From NCBI RefSeq assembly GCF_030817355.1, contig NZ_JAUSZH010000001.1, positions 1,612,001 through 1,676,000 of the forward strand: DNA of 64,000 bases. Direction: 5' to 3'. The notes under the pieces are model-generated. The model ran no database searches. It saw only the letters and a program-made list of their open reading frames with translations, and was not told the origin of the DNA. Source of the DNA: Streptomyces sp. V1I1. GTDB taxonomy: Bacteria; Actinomycetota; Actinomycetes; Streptomycetales; Streptomycetaceae. The stretch's first letter is position 1. The number at the start of each line of letters is the position of its first letter. The position numbers were made by a program, and so were the translations under genes. This document shows positions 1,107 through 11,296 of this stretch, one piece after another.

Positions 1107-2413
1107 GCGCGCTGCGCAAGGGGAGGGCAGCCGCCTGGGCGGCCGTCGGCTCGCTGTTGATTTCCGGCTGCGACATCAACGGGTGGTACGACGTCGACCT
1201 GCCCGGCGGCGCCGCCTCGGACGGCAATGCCTTCAAGGTCACCGTGGAGTTCAGGGACGTCCTCGATCTGGTTCCGCAGTCGTCCGTGAAGGTCAACAAC
1301 GTCACGGTGGGCGCCGTCGAGAAGGTGGAACTGGCCGGCTGGCACGCCAGGGTGCGGCTGCGGGTCGCCGATTCGGTGAAACTGCCCGCCAACGCGGTGG
1401 CCGAGCTGCGGCAGACCAGCATGCTCGGTGAGAAGTACGTGGCGCTGTCCGCCCCGGCGGGTACCGCGCCGGTCGGCAAGCTCGCCGACGGCGCCCGGAT
1501 CCCGCTGTCCCGCAGCGGCCGCAACCCGGAGATCGAAGAGGTGCTGGCCGCGTTGTCGGCTCTGCTCAACGGCGGCGGAGTGGCGCAGCTCAAAACCATC
1601 ACCGTGGAGCTGAACGAGGCCCTGGCGGGCCGGGAGAACCGGGTCAAGTCCCTGCTCACCGAGCTGGACACCTTCCTCGGCGGTCTCGACAGCCAGCGCG
1701 CGGAGATCATCCGCGCGCTGAACGGCATCGACCGGCTGTCCAAGCGACTCGCCAAGGAGAAGACGACGGTCGCCCAGGCCGTCGACACCATGCCGCCCGC
1801 GCTGAAGGTGCTGGCCGACCAGCGCAAGAACCTGACACGGATGCTCACGTCCCTGTCGAAGCTGGGCACGACGGGCACCCGGGTGATCAAGGCCTCGCGG
1901 GACGATGTGGTCGCGAATCTGACGAGCCTGCGGCCGATCCTGGAGCAGTTGAACAAGGCGGGCAACGACCTGCCCAACGCCCTGGAACTCATGACGACGT
2001 ATCCGTTCCCGCGCAGTGCGACGAATGCCATCAAGGGCGACTACGTCAATCTCAAGATCACCGCCGATCTGGATCTCGCGAGCATCTACGGCAACCTCGG
2101 CGACGGGAACGGGAACGGGAAGCCCAAACCCCCGGCGAAGCCCGGAGTTCCGGAAGTGCCGGGCGTCCCGGAGGTGCCCGAGGTGCCAGGAGTTCCCGGC
2201 CTGCCCCGACCCTCCACACCGACGTCCGGGCCAGGTGTTCCGGGCACTCCGAACGACCCGTCGGCCCCCGGCGATCCGCTGTGCCCACCGGTGTGCACCA
2301 GCGGCTACGCCTCGTACGACGAACCCACCGAAAACACCGAAAACGCCGACGGCTACCCGCCCGGAGTCGATTTCGCTCTCGCGGAGCTCATGCTGAAGGG
2401 GATGCAGCCGTGA
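1103..2413 (+). CDS. MCE-family lipoprotein (MceE/LprK-like)
   Basis: This 436-residue protein starts at the ATG overlapping the previous stop. Its N-terminus is a lipoprotein signal (MSALRKGRAAAW, hydrophobic core, lipobox LISGC with the lipidated Cys near residue 24). An MCE domain covers about residues 45-130, followed by a helical region. From about residue 340 it has a proline-rich linker containing PEVPGVPEVPEVPGVPG, and the C-terminus ends in an acidic segment with two Cys in a CPPVCT motif. In mycobacterial operons the fifth mce gene is the lipoprotein, which agrees with this position. The stop overlaps the next GTG start as GTGA. Confidence 0.9.
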   Translation: MSALRKGRAAAWAAVGSLLISGCDINGWYDVDLPGGAASDGNAFKVTVEFRDVLDLVPQSSVKVNNVTVGAVEKVELAGWHARVRLRVADSVKLPANAVAELRQTSMLGEKYVALSAPAGTAPVGKLADGARIPLSRSGRNPEIEEVLAALSALLNGGGVAQLKTITVELNEALAGRENRVKSLLTELDTFLGGLDSQRAEIIRALNGIDRLSKRLAKEKTTVAQAVDTMPPALKVLADQRKNLTRMLTSLSKLGTTGTRVIKASRDDVVANLTSLRPILEQLNKAGNDLPNALELMTTYPFPRSATNAIKGDYVNLKITADLDLASIYGNLGDGNGNGKPKPPAKPGVPEVPGVPEVPEVPGVPGLPRPSTPTSGPGVPGTPNDPSAPGDPLCPPVCTSGYASYDEPTENTENADGYPPGVDFALAELMLKGMQP

Positions 2414-3681
2414 TCACACGCAGCGTCAAGGCGCAGTTGGTCGCCTTCGCCGTCGTCACCGCCGTCGGCGTGTCCTACGTCGGCGCCCAGTACACGGGGC
2501 TGTCCGAAGCGGTCCTCGACCGCGGGTACACCGTGCGGGCCGACTTCGCCGCGTCCGGCGGCATCTTCAAGGGTGCCGAGGTCACCTATCGCGGAGTGCC
2601 GGTGGGCCGGGTCGGCGAGCTGCGGCTGACCGGCTCGGACGGCGTGTCGGTGGCGCTGGACATCGAGGACGGACAGCGGATACCGGCGGACACCCTGGCC
2701 GTGGTTGCGCACCGTTCGGCTGTCGGCGAGCAGTACGTCGATCTGCAGCCACGCGTTTCCAGCGGCCCCTATCTGAAGGACGGCAGCAGGATCGCCCGCG
2801 GTGACACGCGGGTGCCGCTGCCGTCCACGGACCTCGTCCTGAGTGTGGACCGCCTGGTGAAATCCGTCGGCAAGGAAGATCTGCGGATCACGGTCGACGA
2901 GCTGGGCAAGGCCTTCGCGGGCACCGGCCCGCACCTGAGCCGGCTGGTGGACTCGGGCAACCGGCTGATCGAGTCGGCGTCCGACTCGCTCCCGCAGACC
3001 ATCACGCTGATCGAGGACTCGCGCGTGGCCCTCAAGACGCAGTCCGACAAGGGCTCGGCCATCAAGTCGTTCTCCCGCGACCTGGCGGACCTCACCGCCG
3101 AGTTGAAGTCCAGTGACGGTGACATCCGCAGGCTGACCGGCGCGGGCGCGCCCGCGGCGAACGAGCTGAACTCGCTGCTGAAGGCCAACCGGACGCATCT
3201 TCCGGTGCTGTTGGGCAATCTCATCAGCGGCGGCCAGATCACGGTGGCGCGGCTGCCGGGCGTCGAGCAGTCGCTCGTCACCTTTCCCGTGGTGGTCGCG
3301 GGCAGCTTCACCGTGATCCCGGGCGACGGCACCACCCACTTCGGCATGGTCGTCAATGCCGACGAGCCGCCGGCGTGCCGGCAGGGCTACGGGACACAGC
3401 GCCGCGACCCCGCGGACACGAGCGAGCGTCCGGCGAACACCGCCGCACGCTGCACGGCCCCGCGCGGCGGCAAGACCTCGGTCCGCGGCGCACAGAACGC
3501 GCCCGGAGCCTCGGGTTCCAGCGGGGCCGGCCCGGCCGCGTTCATCACCCCCTACGACCCGGAGACCGGCGCCGCAGCCGGCCCGGACGGATCGTTCGTC
3601 GAGATCGGCTCGACGGGCGGAGAACAGAATGTGTTCGGAAAGGACTCGTGGCAATGGCTGCTCGTCGGACCGATGGCATGA
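2410..3681 (+). CDS. MCE-family protein (MceF-like position)
   Basis: A 423-residue protein starting at GTG 2410, which overlaps the upstream stop by 4 bp. An N-terminal membrane segment (ITRSVKAQLVAFAVVTAVG) is followed by an MCE domain at about residues 35-120 and an amphipathic helical region. The tail, from about residue 320, is low-complexity and contains a Cys pair. It is the last MCE subunit of the operon, hence the MceF-like label. The longer upstream reading frame beginning at 2281 overlaps the lipoprotein gene and is not used. The stop overlaps the next ATG as ATGA, so the operon is translationally coupled across four genes. Confidence 0.9.
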   Translation: MITRSVKAQLVAFAVVTAVGVSYVGAQYTGLSEAVLDRGYTVRADFAASGGIFKGAEVTYRGVPVGRVGELRLTGSDGVSVALDIEDGQRIPADTLAVVAHRSAVGEQYVDLQPRVSSGPYLKDGSRIARGDTRVPLPSTDLVLSVDRLVKSVGKEDLRITVDELGKAFAGTGPHLSRLVDSGNRLIESASDSLPQTITLIEDSRVALKTQSDKGSAIKSFSRDLADLTAELKSSDGDIRRLTGAGAPAANELNSLLKANRTHLPVLLGNLISGGQITVARLPGVEQSLVTFPVVVAGSFTVIPGDGTTHFGMVVNADEPPACRQGYGTQRRDPADTSERPANTAARCTAPRGGKTSVRGAQNAPGASGSSGAGPAAFITPYDPETGAAAGPDGSFVEIGSTGGEQNVFGKDSWQWLLVGPMA

Positions 3682-5201: not shown

Positions 5202-5266
5202 TTGACAGCACTCCCGCCCGCCAGGCAATCTTCCGTTAAGCAGAAACTTACTTCCGCAATACGGAA
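5202..5266 (+). promoter_or_regulatory. hyi promoter with two 15-bp palindromic operators
   Basis: A -35 match TTGACA at 5202-5207 is followed 18 bp later by a -10-like CAATCT (5226-5231). Two palindromes sit immediately downstream: TTCCGTTAAGCAGAA (5231-5245) and TTCCGCAATACGGAA (5252-5266), 21 bp centre to centre. The second overlaps the GGAAGGAG ribosome-binding site. A repressor bound here would cover the start of transcription and translation. The same arrangement occurs before gcl (11230-11296). The likely regulator is an IclR/AllR-type protein, by analogy with actinobacterial glyoxylate and allantoin genes; that identity is inferred. Confidence 0.75.
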
Positions 5267-5280
5267 GGAGCGCACCCCTT

Positions 5281-6120
5281 ATGGGATACACGGACCAGCG
5301 CTTCGATGTGAACCTTTCGATCCTCTTCACGGAACTCCCGCTCCTGGAGCGCCCGGCGGCCGCGGCCGCCGCCGGCTTCACCGCGGTCGAGCTGTGGTGG
5401 CCGTGGATCGAGGCCCCCGTCCCGCCGCAGGCCGAGCTCGACGCCCTCAAGAAGGCGCTCGACGACGCCGGCACCCAGCTCGTGGGCCTGAACTTCTACG
5501 CCGGGCAGCTGCCGGGCCCCGACCGCGGCGCGCTCTCCGTGCCCGGCAAGGAGTCCGACCGCTTCCGCGCCAACATCGACGTGGCCGCGGAATTCGCCGC
5601 CTCGGTCGGCTGCAAGGCCCTCAACGCTCTGTACGGCAACCGCGTCGAGGGCATCGACCCGCAGATCCAGGACGCATTCGCCCTGGAGAACCTGGTGCTC
5701 GCCGCCCGCGCCGCCGACCGGGTAGGCGCGATCCTGCTGGTCGAGACCCTGAACAAGCCCGAGTCCCCGCTCTACCCGCTGGTGAGCGCCCCGGCCGCGA
5801 TGGCGATCGTCGACAAGGTGAACGTGGCGACGGGCCTCGGCAACGCGAAGTTCCTCCTCGACATCTACCACCTGTCGATGAATGGCGAGGACGTCAGCCA
5901 GGTCATCACGGCGTACGCCGACAAGACCGGCCACGTCCAGATCGCGGACAACCCGGGCCGCGGCGCCCCGGGCACCGGCTCGCTGCCGCTGGAACAGCTG
6001 CTCGACGAGCTGACGAAGGCCGGTTACGACGGCTGGATCGGCCTGGAGTACAAGGCCGGCGACCGCCCGAGCGCGGAGTCCTTCGACTGGCTCCCGGCCG
6101 AGGCCCGAGCGGCCCGCTGA
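5281..6120 (+). CDS. hyi: Hydroxypyruvate isomerase
   Basis: A 279-residue TIM-barrel protein of the sugar phosphate isomerase/epimerase family. It interconverts hydroxypyruvate and tartronate semialdehyde in glyoxylate assimilation. Family features visible include the N-terminal FDVNLSILFTELPLLER, the GFTAVELWWPW strand, NALYGNR, LVETLNKPESP, LLDIYHLS and GHVQIADNPGRGAPGTG, and length is normal. The GGAAGGAG site lies 9 bp before the ATG. It is followed after 37 bp by glxR, with which it probably forms an operon, and it shares operator architecture with gcl. Confidence 0.93.
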   Translation: MGYTDQRFDVNLSILFTELPLLERPAAAAAAGFTAVELWWPWIEAPVPPQAELDALKKALDDAGTQLVGLNFYAGQLPGPDRGALSVPGKESDRFRANIDVAAEFAASVGCKALNALYGNRVEGIDPQIQDAFALENLVLAARAADRVGAILLVETLNKPESPLYPLVSAPAAMAIVDKVNVATGLGNAKFLLDIYHLSMNGEDVSQVITAYADKTGHVQIADNPGRGAPGTGSLPLEQLLDELTKAGYDGWIGLEYKAGDRPSAESFDWLPAEARAAR

Positions 6121-6157: not shown

Positions 6158-7144
6158 ATGAGCACTCTCGCTGATTCCTCCCGCCCTGCCCCCGCTGGCT
6201 CCTCCAGCCCGGCCCGCGCTGGCTCCTCCCGCCCGGCCCGCGCTGGCTCCTCCCGCCCGGCCCGCCCTGCGATTGCCTGGATCGGCCTCGGCATCATGGG
6301 CTCCCCCATGTCCGAGAACCTCCTGAAGGCGGGTTACGACGTCACCGGCTTCACGCTGGAGCGGGACAAGCTGGACCGGCTGGCCGCGGCCGGCGGCAGC
6401 GCCGCGTCCTCGATCGCCGAGGCCGTCAAGGACGCCGACGTCGTCATCACGATGGTGCCCGCGTCCCCGCAGGTCGAGGCCATCGCGTACGGCCCCGACG
6501 GCATCCTGGAGAACGCGAGGCCGGGCGCCCTGCTGATCGACATGTCCTCGATCACCCCGCAGACCTCGGTGGACCTGGGCAAGGCCGGTACGGAGAAGGG
6601 CATCCGCGTGCTGGACGCCCCGGTCTCCGGCGGCGAGGCCGGCGCGATCGAGGCCGTACTGTCGATCATGGTCGGCGGCGAGCAGGCCGACTTCGACAGC
6701 GCCAGGCCGATCCTCGAGGCCCTCGGCAAGACCATCGTGCTGTGCGGCCCGCACGGCTCCGGCCAGACGGTGAAGGCCGCCAACCAGCTGATCGTCGCGG
6801 TCAACATCCAGGCCTGCGCCGAGGCCGTGGTCTTCCTCGAGAAGTCCGGCGTGAACCTCCAGGCGGCCCTGGACGTCCTCAATGGCGGTCTGGCCGGCTC
6901 GACCGTGCTGACCCGCAAGAAGGACAACTTCCTCAACCGGGACTTCAAGCCCGGCTTCCGGATCGAGCTGCACCACAAGGACATGGGCATCGTCACCGAC
7001 GCCGCCCGCAATGTCGGCGCCGCACTGCCCGTCGGCTCGGTGGTCGCCCAGCTGGTCGGCTCGCTGCGCGCCCAGGGCGACGGCGGCCTCGACCACTCCG
7101 CCCTGCTGCGCTCCGTCGAGCGTCTCTCCGGCCAGCAGGTCTGA
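6158..7144 (+). CDS. glxR: 2-hydroxy-3-oxopropionate (tartronate semialdehyde) reductase
   Basis: A 328-residue beta-hydroxyacid dehydrogenase that reduces tartronate semialdehyde to glycerate with NAD(P)H. The dinucleotide fold starts at IGLGIMGSPMSENL (about residue 44), followed by the substrate motif DAPVSGGEAGA and the catalytic-lysine segment GSGQTVKAANQ. The C-terminal all-alpha domain contains HHKDMGIV. Odd feature: about 35 extra residues precede the Rossmann fold and consist of an AGSSRPAR octapeptide repeat encoded by 24-bp tandem repeats. It lies 37 bp after hyi, with AGGAAGG before its ATG. Confidence 0.93.
   Translation: MSTLADSSRPAPAGSSSPARAGSSRPARAGSSRPARPAIAWIGLGIMGSPMSENLLKAGYDVTGFTLERDKLDRLAAAGGSAASSIAEAVKDADVVITMVPASPQVEAIAYGPDGILENARPGALLIDMSSITPQTSVDLGKAGTEKGIRVLDAPVSGGEAGAIEAVLSIMVGGEQADFDSARPILEALGKTIVLCGPHGSGQTVKAANQLIVAVNIQACAEAVVFLEKSGVNLQAALDVLNGGLAGSTVLTRKKDNFLNRDFKPGFRIELHHKDMGIVTDAARNVGAALPVGSVVAQLVGSLRAQGDGGLDHSALLRSVERLSGQQV
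6194..6265 (+). repeat. 24-bp tandem repeat in the glxR N-terminus
   Basis: Three head-to-tail 24-bp units (6194-6217, 6218-6241, 6242-6265). The last two are identical, and the first differs by one base. They encode AGSSSPAR, AGSSRPAR and AGSSRPAR ahead of the catalytic domain. Confidence 0.93.
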
Positions 7145-7230
7145 CTCCCAGATTTCCGGGCGGCGTTGGCGCTGACACCTGTCCTGTCGCGCCCAGGCGC
7201 CGGCGCCGCCCGGAACACCACCCTTCATTT

Positions 7231-7245
7231 TCAACAAACTGTTGA
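7231..7245. promoter_or_regulatory. Palindrome upstream of the catalase gene
   Basis: TCAACAAACTGTTGA is a perfect 6-bp inverted repeat around a 3-bp centre, 72 bp before the catalase ATG. It is unrelated in sequence to the TTCCG-type operators of hyi and gcl, suggesting that the catalase gene answers to a separate regulator. The regulator is unknown. Confidence 0.5.
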
Positions 7246-7317
7246 CGTGATCTTCGAGTCGAATTTACGCTCCTCGCACCGCCAGCAGCTCCAGCACGGA
7301 AGGTCAATCCCGCCACC

Positions 7318-8784
7318 ATGACGCAGCGTGTGCTTACGACCGAGTCAGGCGCCCCGGTCGCCGACAACCAGAACTCCGCCACCGCCGGCGTCGGTGGCCC
7401 CCTCCTCCTCCAGGACCAGCACCTGCTGGAGAAGCTCGCCCGCTTCAACCGGGAGCGCATCCCGGAGCGCGTCGTGCACGCCCGCGGCTCCGGCGCGTAC
7501 GGCTACTTCGAGGTCACGGACGACGTCACCGGCTTCACCAAGGCGGACTTCCTGTCCGAGGTCGGCAAGCGCACAGAGACGTTCATCCGCTTCTCCACCG
7601 TCGCCGATTCGCTGGGTGGCGCGGACGCGGTCCGTGACCCGCGCGGCTTCGCGCTGAAGTTCTACACCGAGGACGGGAACTACGACCTCGTCGGCAACAA
7701 CACCCCGGTGTTCTTCATCAAGGACCCGGTCAAGTTCCCGGACTTCATCCACTCGCAGAAGCGCGACCCGTTCACGGGCAAGCAGGAGCCGGACAACGTC
7801 TGGGACTTCTGGGCGCACGCCCCCGAGGCGACGCACCAGGTGACCTGGCTGATGGGCGACCGCGGCATCCCCGCCTCGTACCGCCACATGAACGGCTACG
7901 GCTCGCACACCTACCAGTGGACGAACGCCGCCGGCGAGGCCTTCTTCGTCAAGTACCACTTCAAGACGAACCAGGGCATCCGCTGCCTATCGTCCGAGCA
8001 GGCCGCAGAGACCGCGGGCAAGGACGGCAACAGCCACCAGACGGACCTGCTGCAGGCGATCGAGCGCGGTGTGAACCCGTCCTGGACCCTGTACGTCCAG
8101 CTCATGCCGGCCGCCGAGGCGGCTGAGTACCGCTTCAACCCGTTCGACCTCACCAAGGTGTGGCCGCACAGCGACTATCCGCTGCAGCGCGTGGGCCGCC
8201 TGGTCCTGGACCGCAACCCCGACAACGTCTTCGCCGAGGTCGAGCAGGCGGCGTTCTCGCCGAACAACTTCGTGCCCGGCATCGGTCCTTCGCCGGACAG
8301 GATGCTCCAGGGCCGGCTGTTCGCCTACGCGGACGCGCACCGCTACCGCCTGGGCGTCAACCACACGCAGCTGGCGGTGAACGCACCGAAGGCTGTGCCT
8401 GGGGGGTCTGCCGACAACTACGGCCGCGACGGTCTGATGGCCACGCGCAACGGCTCGCGCCACGACAAGAACTACGAGCCCAACTCGTACGCCGGTCCCG
8501 CGCAGACGGACGCCGCCCTGTCGGCCCCGCTCGCCGTCCAGGGCTGGACGGGCACCCACGCGACCCCGATCCACGTCAAGGACGACGACTTCTTCCAGGC
8601 GGGCGAGCTGTACCGGCTGATGTCCGAGGAGGAGAAGTCCCGCCTGATCGCCAACATCGCGGGCGGCCTCTCGCAGGTCACCCGCGACGACGTGATCGAG
8701 AAGAACCTCGCCCACTTCCACGCCGCCGACGCCGACTACGGCAAGCGTGTCGAGGAGGCGGTCCGCGCCCTGCGCGAGGACTGA
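7318..8784 (+). CDS. Catalase (monofunctional haem catalase)
   Basis: 488 residues, the size of small-subunit haem catalases. The distal His is in [15 protein letters not shown] (His54), the conserved Asn in [10 protein letters not shown] (about Asn127), and the proximal Tyr in [14 protein letters not shown] (Tyr337). The FIRFSTV and [13 protein letters not shown] motifs are also present. It degrades H2O2 in the cytosol. It is 173 bp from glxR with its own palindrome, so it may be separately transcribed. Linkage to glyoxylate genes would make sense if glycolate oxidation generates peroxide, which is inference. Confidence 0.95.
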
Positions 8785-9382: not shown

Positions 9383-11170
<1,788 letters not shown>

Positions 11171-11229: not shown

Positions 11230-11296
11230 TTCCGTAATGCGGAAGTATAGTTCTGCTATACGGAAGCAATGTAGGATGCGTACGGAACGGCGTCAA
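11230..11296 (-). promoter_or_regulatory. gcl promoter with two 15-bp palindromic operators
   Basis: Reading the reverse strand, -35 TTGACG (11296-11291) is 17 bp from -10 TACATT (11273-11268). Two palindromes follow: TTCCGTATAGCAGAA (11265-11251) and TTCCGCATTACGGAA (11244-11230), with centres 21 bp apart. The promoter-proximal site matches the hyi proximal site in 13 of 15 bases and the distal sites match in 14 of 15. Binding would block transcription initiation at gcl. Confidence 0.8.

Follow-up and report, generated by a model that had tools for sequence, protein, structure and literature searches.

Conserved tandem palindromes at the gcl and hyi promoters of Streptomyces, probable operators of an AllR-type repressor with a recurrent flaw beside the -10 box

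The window analysed here is a stretch of 64,000 nucleotides from the genome of Streptomyces sp. V1I1, which carries genes for glyoxylate carboligase (gcl), hydroxypyruvate isomerase (hyi), tartronate semialdehyde reductase and a catalase (Table 1). The family match of the open frame of the reductase begins at residue 39. Upstream of hyi lies a gene for an MCE-family protein (window positions 2281-3681, plus strand; TIGR00996 above cut-off).

Table 1. Features of the gcl and hyi promoters and of the associated genes. Positions refer to the window unless a locus is named.
Feature	Position	Strand	Remarks
hyi -35 box TTGACA	5202..5207	+	TTGAC at -28/-29 in 69/69 orthologs
hyi operator site 1, putative, TTCCGTTAAGCAGAA	5231..5245	+	start-side; pair 4/12 broken (C-A)
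hyi operator site 2, putative, TTCCGCAATACGGAA	5252..5266	+	arms perfect
hyi, hydroxypyruvate isomerase, 279 aa	5281..6120	+	best model TIGR03234, 307.4 bits, below cut-off 353.45
tartronate semialdehyde reductase (open frame), behind hyi	6158..7144	+	TIGR01505 above NCBIfam cut-off
palindrome TTCAACAAACTGTTGAC	7230-7246	+	overlaps TTGACG -35 box, before catalase gene 7318-8784
gcl, glyoxylate carboligase, 595 aa	9383..11170	-	TIGR01504 above NCBIfam cut-off
gcl operator site 2, putative, TTCCGCATTACGGAA	11230..11244	-	arms perfect
gcl operator site 1, putative, TTCCGTATAGCAGAA	11251..11265	-	start-side; pair 4/12 broken (C-A)
gcl -10 box TACATT	11268..11273	-	17-bp spacer; read from sequence
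gcl -35 box TTGACG	11291..11296	-	TTGAC 30-33 bases before site 1 in 79/80 orthologs
HTH_22 gene and OHCU decarboxylase/HIU hydrolase/uricase genes	L035:12805-13182, L035:10804-12792	-	~10 kb before the window

Read on the reverse strand, the gcl promoter runs TTGACG, 17 bp, TACATT, 2 bp, TTCCGTATAGCAGAA, 6 bp, TTCCGCATTACGGAA, with the ATG at 11170. This bears out the preliminary description, made from the sequence of the window, of a TTGACG-17-TACATT promoter followed by two sites 21 bp apart. The order on the plus strand at hyi is TTGACA, TTCCGTTAAGCAGAA, 6 bp, TTCCGCAATACGGAA, with the ATG at 5281; its own -10 box is weak and ambiguous, either CAATCT at 5226-5231 (18 bp from the -35 box) or AATCTT at 5227-5232 (19 bp). 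The start-to-start spacing of the sites is 21 bp at both genes alike. Compared by eye, the start-side sites of the two genes differ by 2 bases and the far sites by 1, just as had been claimed. The genes had also been called divergent, which is wrong if meant literally: they face each other, with starts about 5.9 kb apart.

The pattern TTCYG-N5-CRGAA matches four times in the 64-kb window, exactly at the gcl and hyi sites, with 0.13 matches expected. The palindrome TTCCG-N5-CGGAA shows no enrichment in the window when up to 2 mismatches are allowed (40 found, 35.1 expected). A scan of the 8.3-Mb genome for the tandem, allowing at most 3 mismatches, listed 11 places. Only gcl and hyi are free of mismatches; the allR-allB intergenic region and position 3047494 have 2 each, and aceB and six others have 3. 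The total at up to 3 mismatches (9+8) is not above that of a reversed-pattern control (11+7), so that the cases for allB and aceB rest on their context and conservation, presented below. The seven other places, 3047494 included, were rejected as targets, all of them lying wholly within open frames. Nor did we take as targets 20 other single palindromes of the genome, all under open frames of at least 300 bases, an assignment that is mechanical and weak evidence in a G+C-rich genome. Among these 20, only the one at 7328569 has a notable partner at 21 bp (8 of 10).

Conservation was assessed in the best 80 of at least 595 confirmed Gcl relatives. These 80 gcl loci are mostly from Streptomyces, with five from Kitasatospora, one from Actinacidiphila and one from a further actinobacterium, and hyi is present in 69 of them and was not found in 11. 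With any spacing from 15 to 40 bp permitted without preference, 21 bp was the sole best spacing at gcl in 76 of the 80 loci and tied for best in 4, and it was the sole best in all 69 hyi promoters; the genomes are related, and the counts are therefore not independent events. Tandem scores were 18-20 of 20 at gcl and 17-20 at hyi, and shuffled regions reached at most 16 (one letter shuffle per region). The mean information per base is 1.53-1.76 bits in the sites of the gcl and hyi orthologs. For gcl and hyi, respectively, it is 0.34 and 1.03 bits in the linker, 0.42 and 0.77 in the stretch from -35 to -10, and 0.21 and 0.28 in the 25 bases past site 2. A TTCCG lying about 22 bp ahead of gcl site 1 (11287-11283) was discarded as a third half-site, its equivalent being present in just one gcl ortholog out of 80 and one hyi ortholog out of 69.

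The preliminary description had named the loss of the sites or of their spacing in orthologs as the outcome that would speak against it. No such loss was seen: the pair is retained in 80/80 gcl and 69/69 hyi promoters, and no spacing scores better there than 21 bp. That gcl and hyi each carry a conserved, promoter-linked pair of TTCCR-N5-YRGAA palindromes is confirmed, and the reading of the pair as a constrained and presumably regulatory module of two sites is supported. The pair extends to more distant relatives. Among 31 further genomes of the family, hyi (57-67% identity) occurs in 22, and the 21-bp pair in 22 of these 22. For gcl we considered 16 loci of sister genera: the five with 87-91% Gcl identity all keep the 21-bp tandem (one tied with 22), and the remaining 11 have no tandem before gcl (six at 76-79% and five at 52-54% identity). 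In two examples (G037 and G002), gcl lies on the same strand as hyi, about 1.1 kb behind it, and the hyi promoter has the pair; because gcl follows so closely, it is probably read there as part of an operon from the hyi promoter.

When the promoters were scanned with a permissive -35/-10 pattern and no shuffled control, -35 and -10 boxes adjoined site 1 at gcl in 80 of 81 loci and at hyi in all 70 (own genome included). The gcl site starts 1-4 bases past the -10 box (79 shown); in 69 of the 70 hyi loci, site 1 and the -10 box share 1-2 bases. The order of an imperfect site followed by a perfect one, said in the preliminary description to be conserved, holds across the orthologs: at gcl, site 1 is the less palindromic of the two in 57 promoters and equal to site 2 in the other 23; at hyi these counts are 68 and 1, and the reverse never occurs at either gene. 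This order is reducible to one base pair, 4/12. The start-side site has it broken (C-A) in 77 of the 80 gcl promoters and in all 69 hyi promoters, and the partner site has it intact in all 80 and all 69. The three gcl exceptions (L092, L108 and L114, all from Kitasatospora) have a start-side site that is flawed in another way. Counted by eye in the 22 distant hyi promoters, position 12 is A in site 1 of 21 (the exception is L220) and G in site 2 of all 22. At position 12 the scoring allowed either A or G, in site 1 as in site 2, and is hence not the source of this difference.

The same module is found at two further places of the genome, in the allR-allB intergenic region (TTCCACAAAGTGAAA and TTTCATGAGGCAGAA, 21 bp apart) and upstream of aceB, the malate synthase gene (TTCCACCATGAGAAA and ATCCACTGGTCAGAA, 21 bp apart). 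The tandem scans of their orthologs had no shuffled control. Of 30 allR loci (own included), 18 score at least 18 with 21 bp as the sole best spacing and one more has two 21-bp candidates; a clear 21-bp tandem is absent in 11-12 of the 30, one of which is best at 22 bp. At aceB, all but one of the 30 loci have 21 bp as the sole best spacing. In 28 of the 29 score-passing loci, the promoter there, TTGAAC-17-TACTAT, has site 1 within its spacer, and the end of its -10 box is covered by site 2. It is site 2, the one adjoining -10, that has pair 4/12 broken (29 of 30 loci); site 1, the partner, keeps the pair in 30 of 30 and is imperfect at other pairs. Read in the direction of allB, the first arm of the start-side site is TTCTG or TTCTA in 16 of the 18 tandems, and the partner site keeps pair 4/12 in 16 of 18. 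An allB promoter was recognised in only 6 of the 18 tandem loci, the own locus not among them, which makes allB the weakest case. The common pattern is a -10-adjoining site with one weakened half-site and a partner that keeps pair 4/12.

A second palindrome accompanies some of these promoters. Hyi promoters of the sister genera contain TTGACAAACTGTTGAA-like letters that recur in the allB and aceB regions of the own genome. The palindrome TCAACRAACYRTTGAA, with up to 2 mismatches, has 13 matches in the own genome, compared with 1+3 for the reversed control: it is exact at allR-allB and aceB, has 1 mismatch at the catalase promoter of the window and 2 at ten other places, among them 1602726, which precedes the genes for OHCU decarboxylase, HIU hydrolase and uricase. 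We counted it as conserved at 10 or more of 12 arm bases, a threshold above the maximum of 9 reached by shuffles. By this count, 53 of the 55 catalase loci retain it (the gene occurs in 55 of the best 80 loci; the row L046, whose match is thousands of bases away from the gene, was excluded), as do 30 of 30 urate operons (with the conserved start used), 24 of 27 allB and 26 of 30 aceB regions. Among the 22 distant hyi promoters, 11 have at least 10 arm bases and 9 have 9. The AllR tandem is absent from the 30 urate-operon regions, where the best score is 15 of 20 at 21 bp. Directly before the OHCU decarboxylase gene, in 29 of 30 OHCU loci, lies an HTH_22 gene of 125 aa. In a limited literature collection, the exact palindrome was found in no paper, and a word search returned nothing specific.

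Two palindromes at a fixed distance are a known arrangement in the IclR family, whose tandem operators have reportedly been surveyed in work of the Suvorova and Gelfand type. Passages of a family survey describe, for 94 ortholog groups, tandem sites at a distance of 18-22 bp, two helical turns, and ascribe them to tetramers bound on one DNA face (PMC8222616). The centres of the present pairs, for which 21 bp is the best or a tied-best spacing in 80/80 gcl and 69/69 hyi promoters, fall within that range. The candidate regulator, a 276-aa frame with PF01614 and PF09339, lies 70-75 kb from hyi and gcl, in a genome with 16 IclR C-terminal matches. Its gene is divergent from that of allantoinase, with allantoicase behind allantoinase and malate synthase A about 4.6 kb on. 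It scores 124.6 bits against the E. coli AllR model NF007548 (cut-off 406), and its best curated model is BhcR (204.9 bits, below the cut-off of 350), followed by IclR (168.1 bits, below 380). The candidate resembles E. coli AllR in its family and its allantoin/glyoxylate pathway, and PDB 1tf1 matches its C-terminal domain. However, it falls short of the E. coli model, and the operators differ: that of E. coli is given, in the same survey passages, as KTTGGAAWAWTWTTCCAAC, with GGAA preceding TTCC (PMC8222616), whereas the sites here are TTCCR-N5-YRGAA.

The distribution of AllR ties it to these operators by gene linkage, as for a cognate regulator: allantoinase is its neighbour, and AllR homolog and hyi lie on one contig at most 20 kb apart in 19 of the 21 sister-genus genomes with both (at most 12 kb in 17). 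At 1e-60, AllR has a match in 54 of the 61 family genomes. Six of the seven genomes without one also lack gcl (at 1e-150) and hyi (at 1e-50), and 15 of 18 AllR-bearing genomes checked for gcl were positive. In each of 24 family genomes with an AllR homolog of only 58-67% identity, a 21-bp tandem stands before the homolog's own gene (3 tied with 26 bp), with scores of 17-18 in a scan without shuffled control. These tandems (L238-L260 and L158) lie 25-80 bp before the gene, often as TTCTGTAAGGTGGAG and TTCCGCGATACAGAA, and suggest self-regulation. The AllR regulon of Streptomyces coelicolor was reportedly described by Navone et al. in 2015, with AllR as an IclR-family repressor of allantoin genes; hyi is said to be one of its targets, and allantoate and glyoxylate are said to weaken AllR binding. 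The system described here is like it in the IclR-family candidate, the allantoin genes and hyi, a likeness at the level of the genes. As in a Streptomyces AllR regulon, a common operator stands at allantoin and glyoxylate genes, here hyi, gcl, allR-allB and aceB.

From these sequence data, the gcl and hyi promoters are with good confidence targets of a repressor of the AllR type within the IclR family, whose gene lies elsewhere in the genome. We consider it improbable that the sites belong to another regulator, such as a different IclR protein among the 16 or the protein that recognises the second palindrome (TTCAAC-N5-GTTGAA), with the neighbourhood of allR a coincidence. That palindrome is indeed also present at allB and aceB, and one genome (G010, L217; a 93% complete assembly) has gcl and hyi and retains the hyi operator with no AllR match at 1e-60. 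Yet 10 or more arm bases of the second palindrome are present in just 4 gcl promoters out of 80 and one hyi promoter out of 69, the allR-allB region itself has the 21-bp tandem, and the AllR homologs of sister genera, near hyi in 19 of 21 genomes, have tandems at their own promoters. Activation through the site pair seems highly improbable: some IclR-family members are activators according to the survey passages (PMC8222616), but the gcl and hyi sites lie at or downstream of -10, a position that would block polymerase rather than recruit it, and the -35 boxes are near consensus.

Under AllR control, the two palindromes, two helical turns apart, would place two repressor dimers on the same DNA face, where they may cooperate as a tetramer. 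The perfect site would anchor the repressor, and cooperativity would fill the flawed one that covers the start, so that RNA polymerase is blocked. A pathway intermediate, e.g., allantoate or glyoxylate, would release the repressor, with the single weakened half-site setting how easily the start-side dimer comes off, and the promoters would open together once purine breakdown yields glyoxylate. The start-side flaw would, we infer, tune repressor affinity. Alternatively, the pairs are AllR operators whose asymmetry is a by-product of promoter needs and tunes nothing: the start-side site overlaps the -10 box, the start point and the bases transcribed first, and the sequence preferences there could bar a perfect palindrome. 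This is possible, if rather doubtful. It agrees with the presence of the broken pair in the -10-adjoining site of all four promoter classes, and with the conservation of further bases (ATAG) of gcl site 1. However, the deviant base is about 14 bases past -10 at gcl and 10-11 at hyi and aceB; at allB it is in the other arm, about 2 bases past -10 (in the 6 of 18 loci with a recognisable -10), and it falls on the same operator position, 4 or 12, every time. Since its distance from -10 varies and either arm can carry it, we favour selection on repressor binding over promoter need.

The palindromes at the catalase gene, the urate operon, allB and aceB suggest a second regulator of purine breakdown; that this is the HTH_22 protein is a guess from its neighbourhood. 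Purine-to-glyoxylate breakdown in Streptomyces would then be governed by two interlocking operator codes, the flawed-site tandem of AllR and the TTCAAC-N5-GTTGAA of the second regulator, with allB and aceB answering to both, a proposal that we hold to be evenly balanced between right and wrong. The AllR partner site lies downstream (gcl, hyi and allB) or upstream within the promoter spacer (aceB). The second palindrome overlaps the -35 box at the urate operon, at the catalase gene and at aceB, and it also stands at allB.

The tandem pair is a well-kept case of a known habit of the IclR family, and the start-side flaw is the less expected part. A conserved flaw of a single pair in the start-side site is not mentioned in the passages of the family survey on which we drew (PMC8222616). 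Four promoters with one likely repressor, in many genomes, hold one operator pair broken beside the -10 box, and this makes the question of why a repressor site stays imperfect directly testable. The second palindrome points to a regulon that joins urate breakdown to the removal of the peroxide made by uricase. The flaw and this palindrome most deserve specialist attention. In S. coelicolor, hyi is reportedly the AllR target through which the loss of AllR impairs antibiotic production, a link that would lend the control of hyi practical weight.
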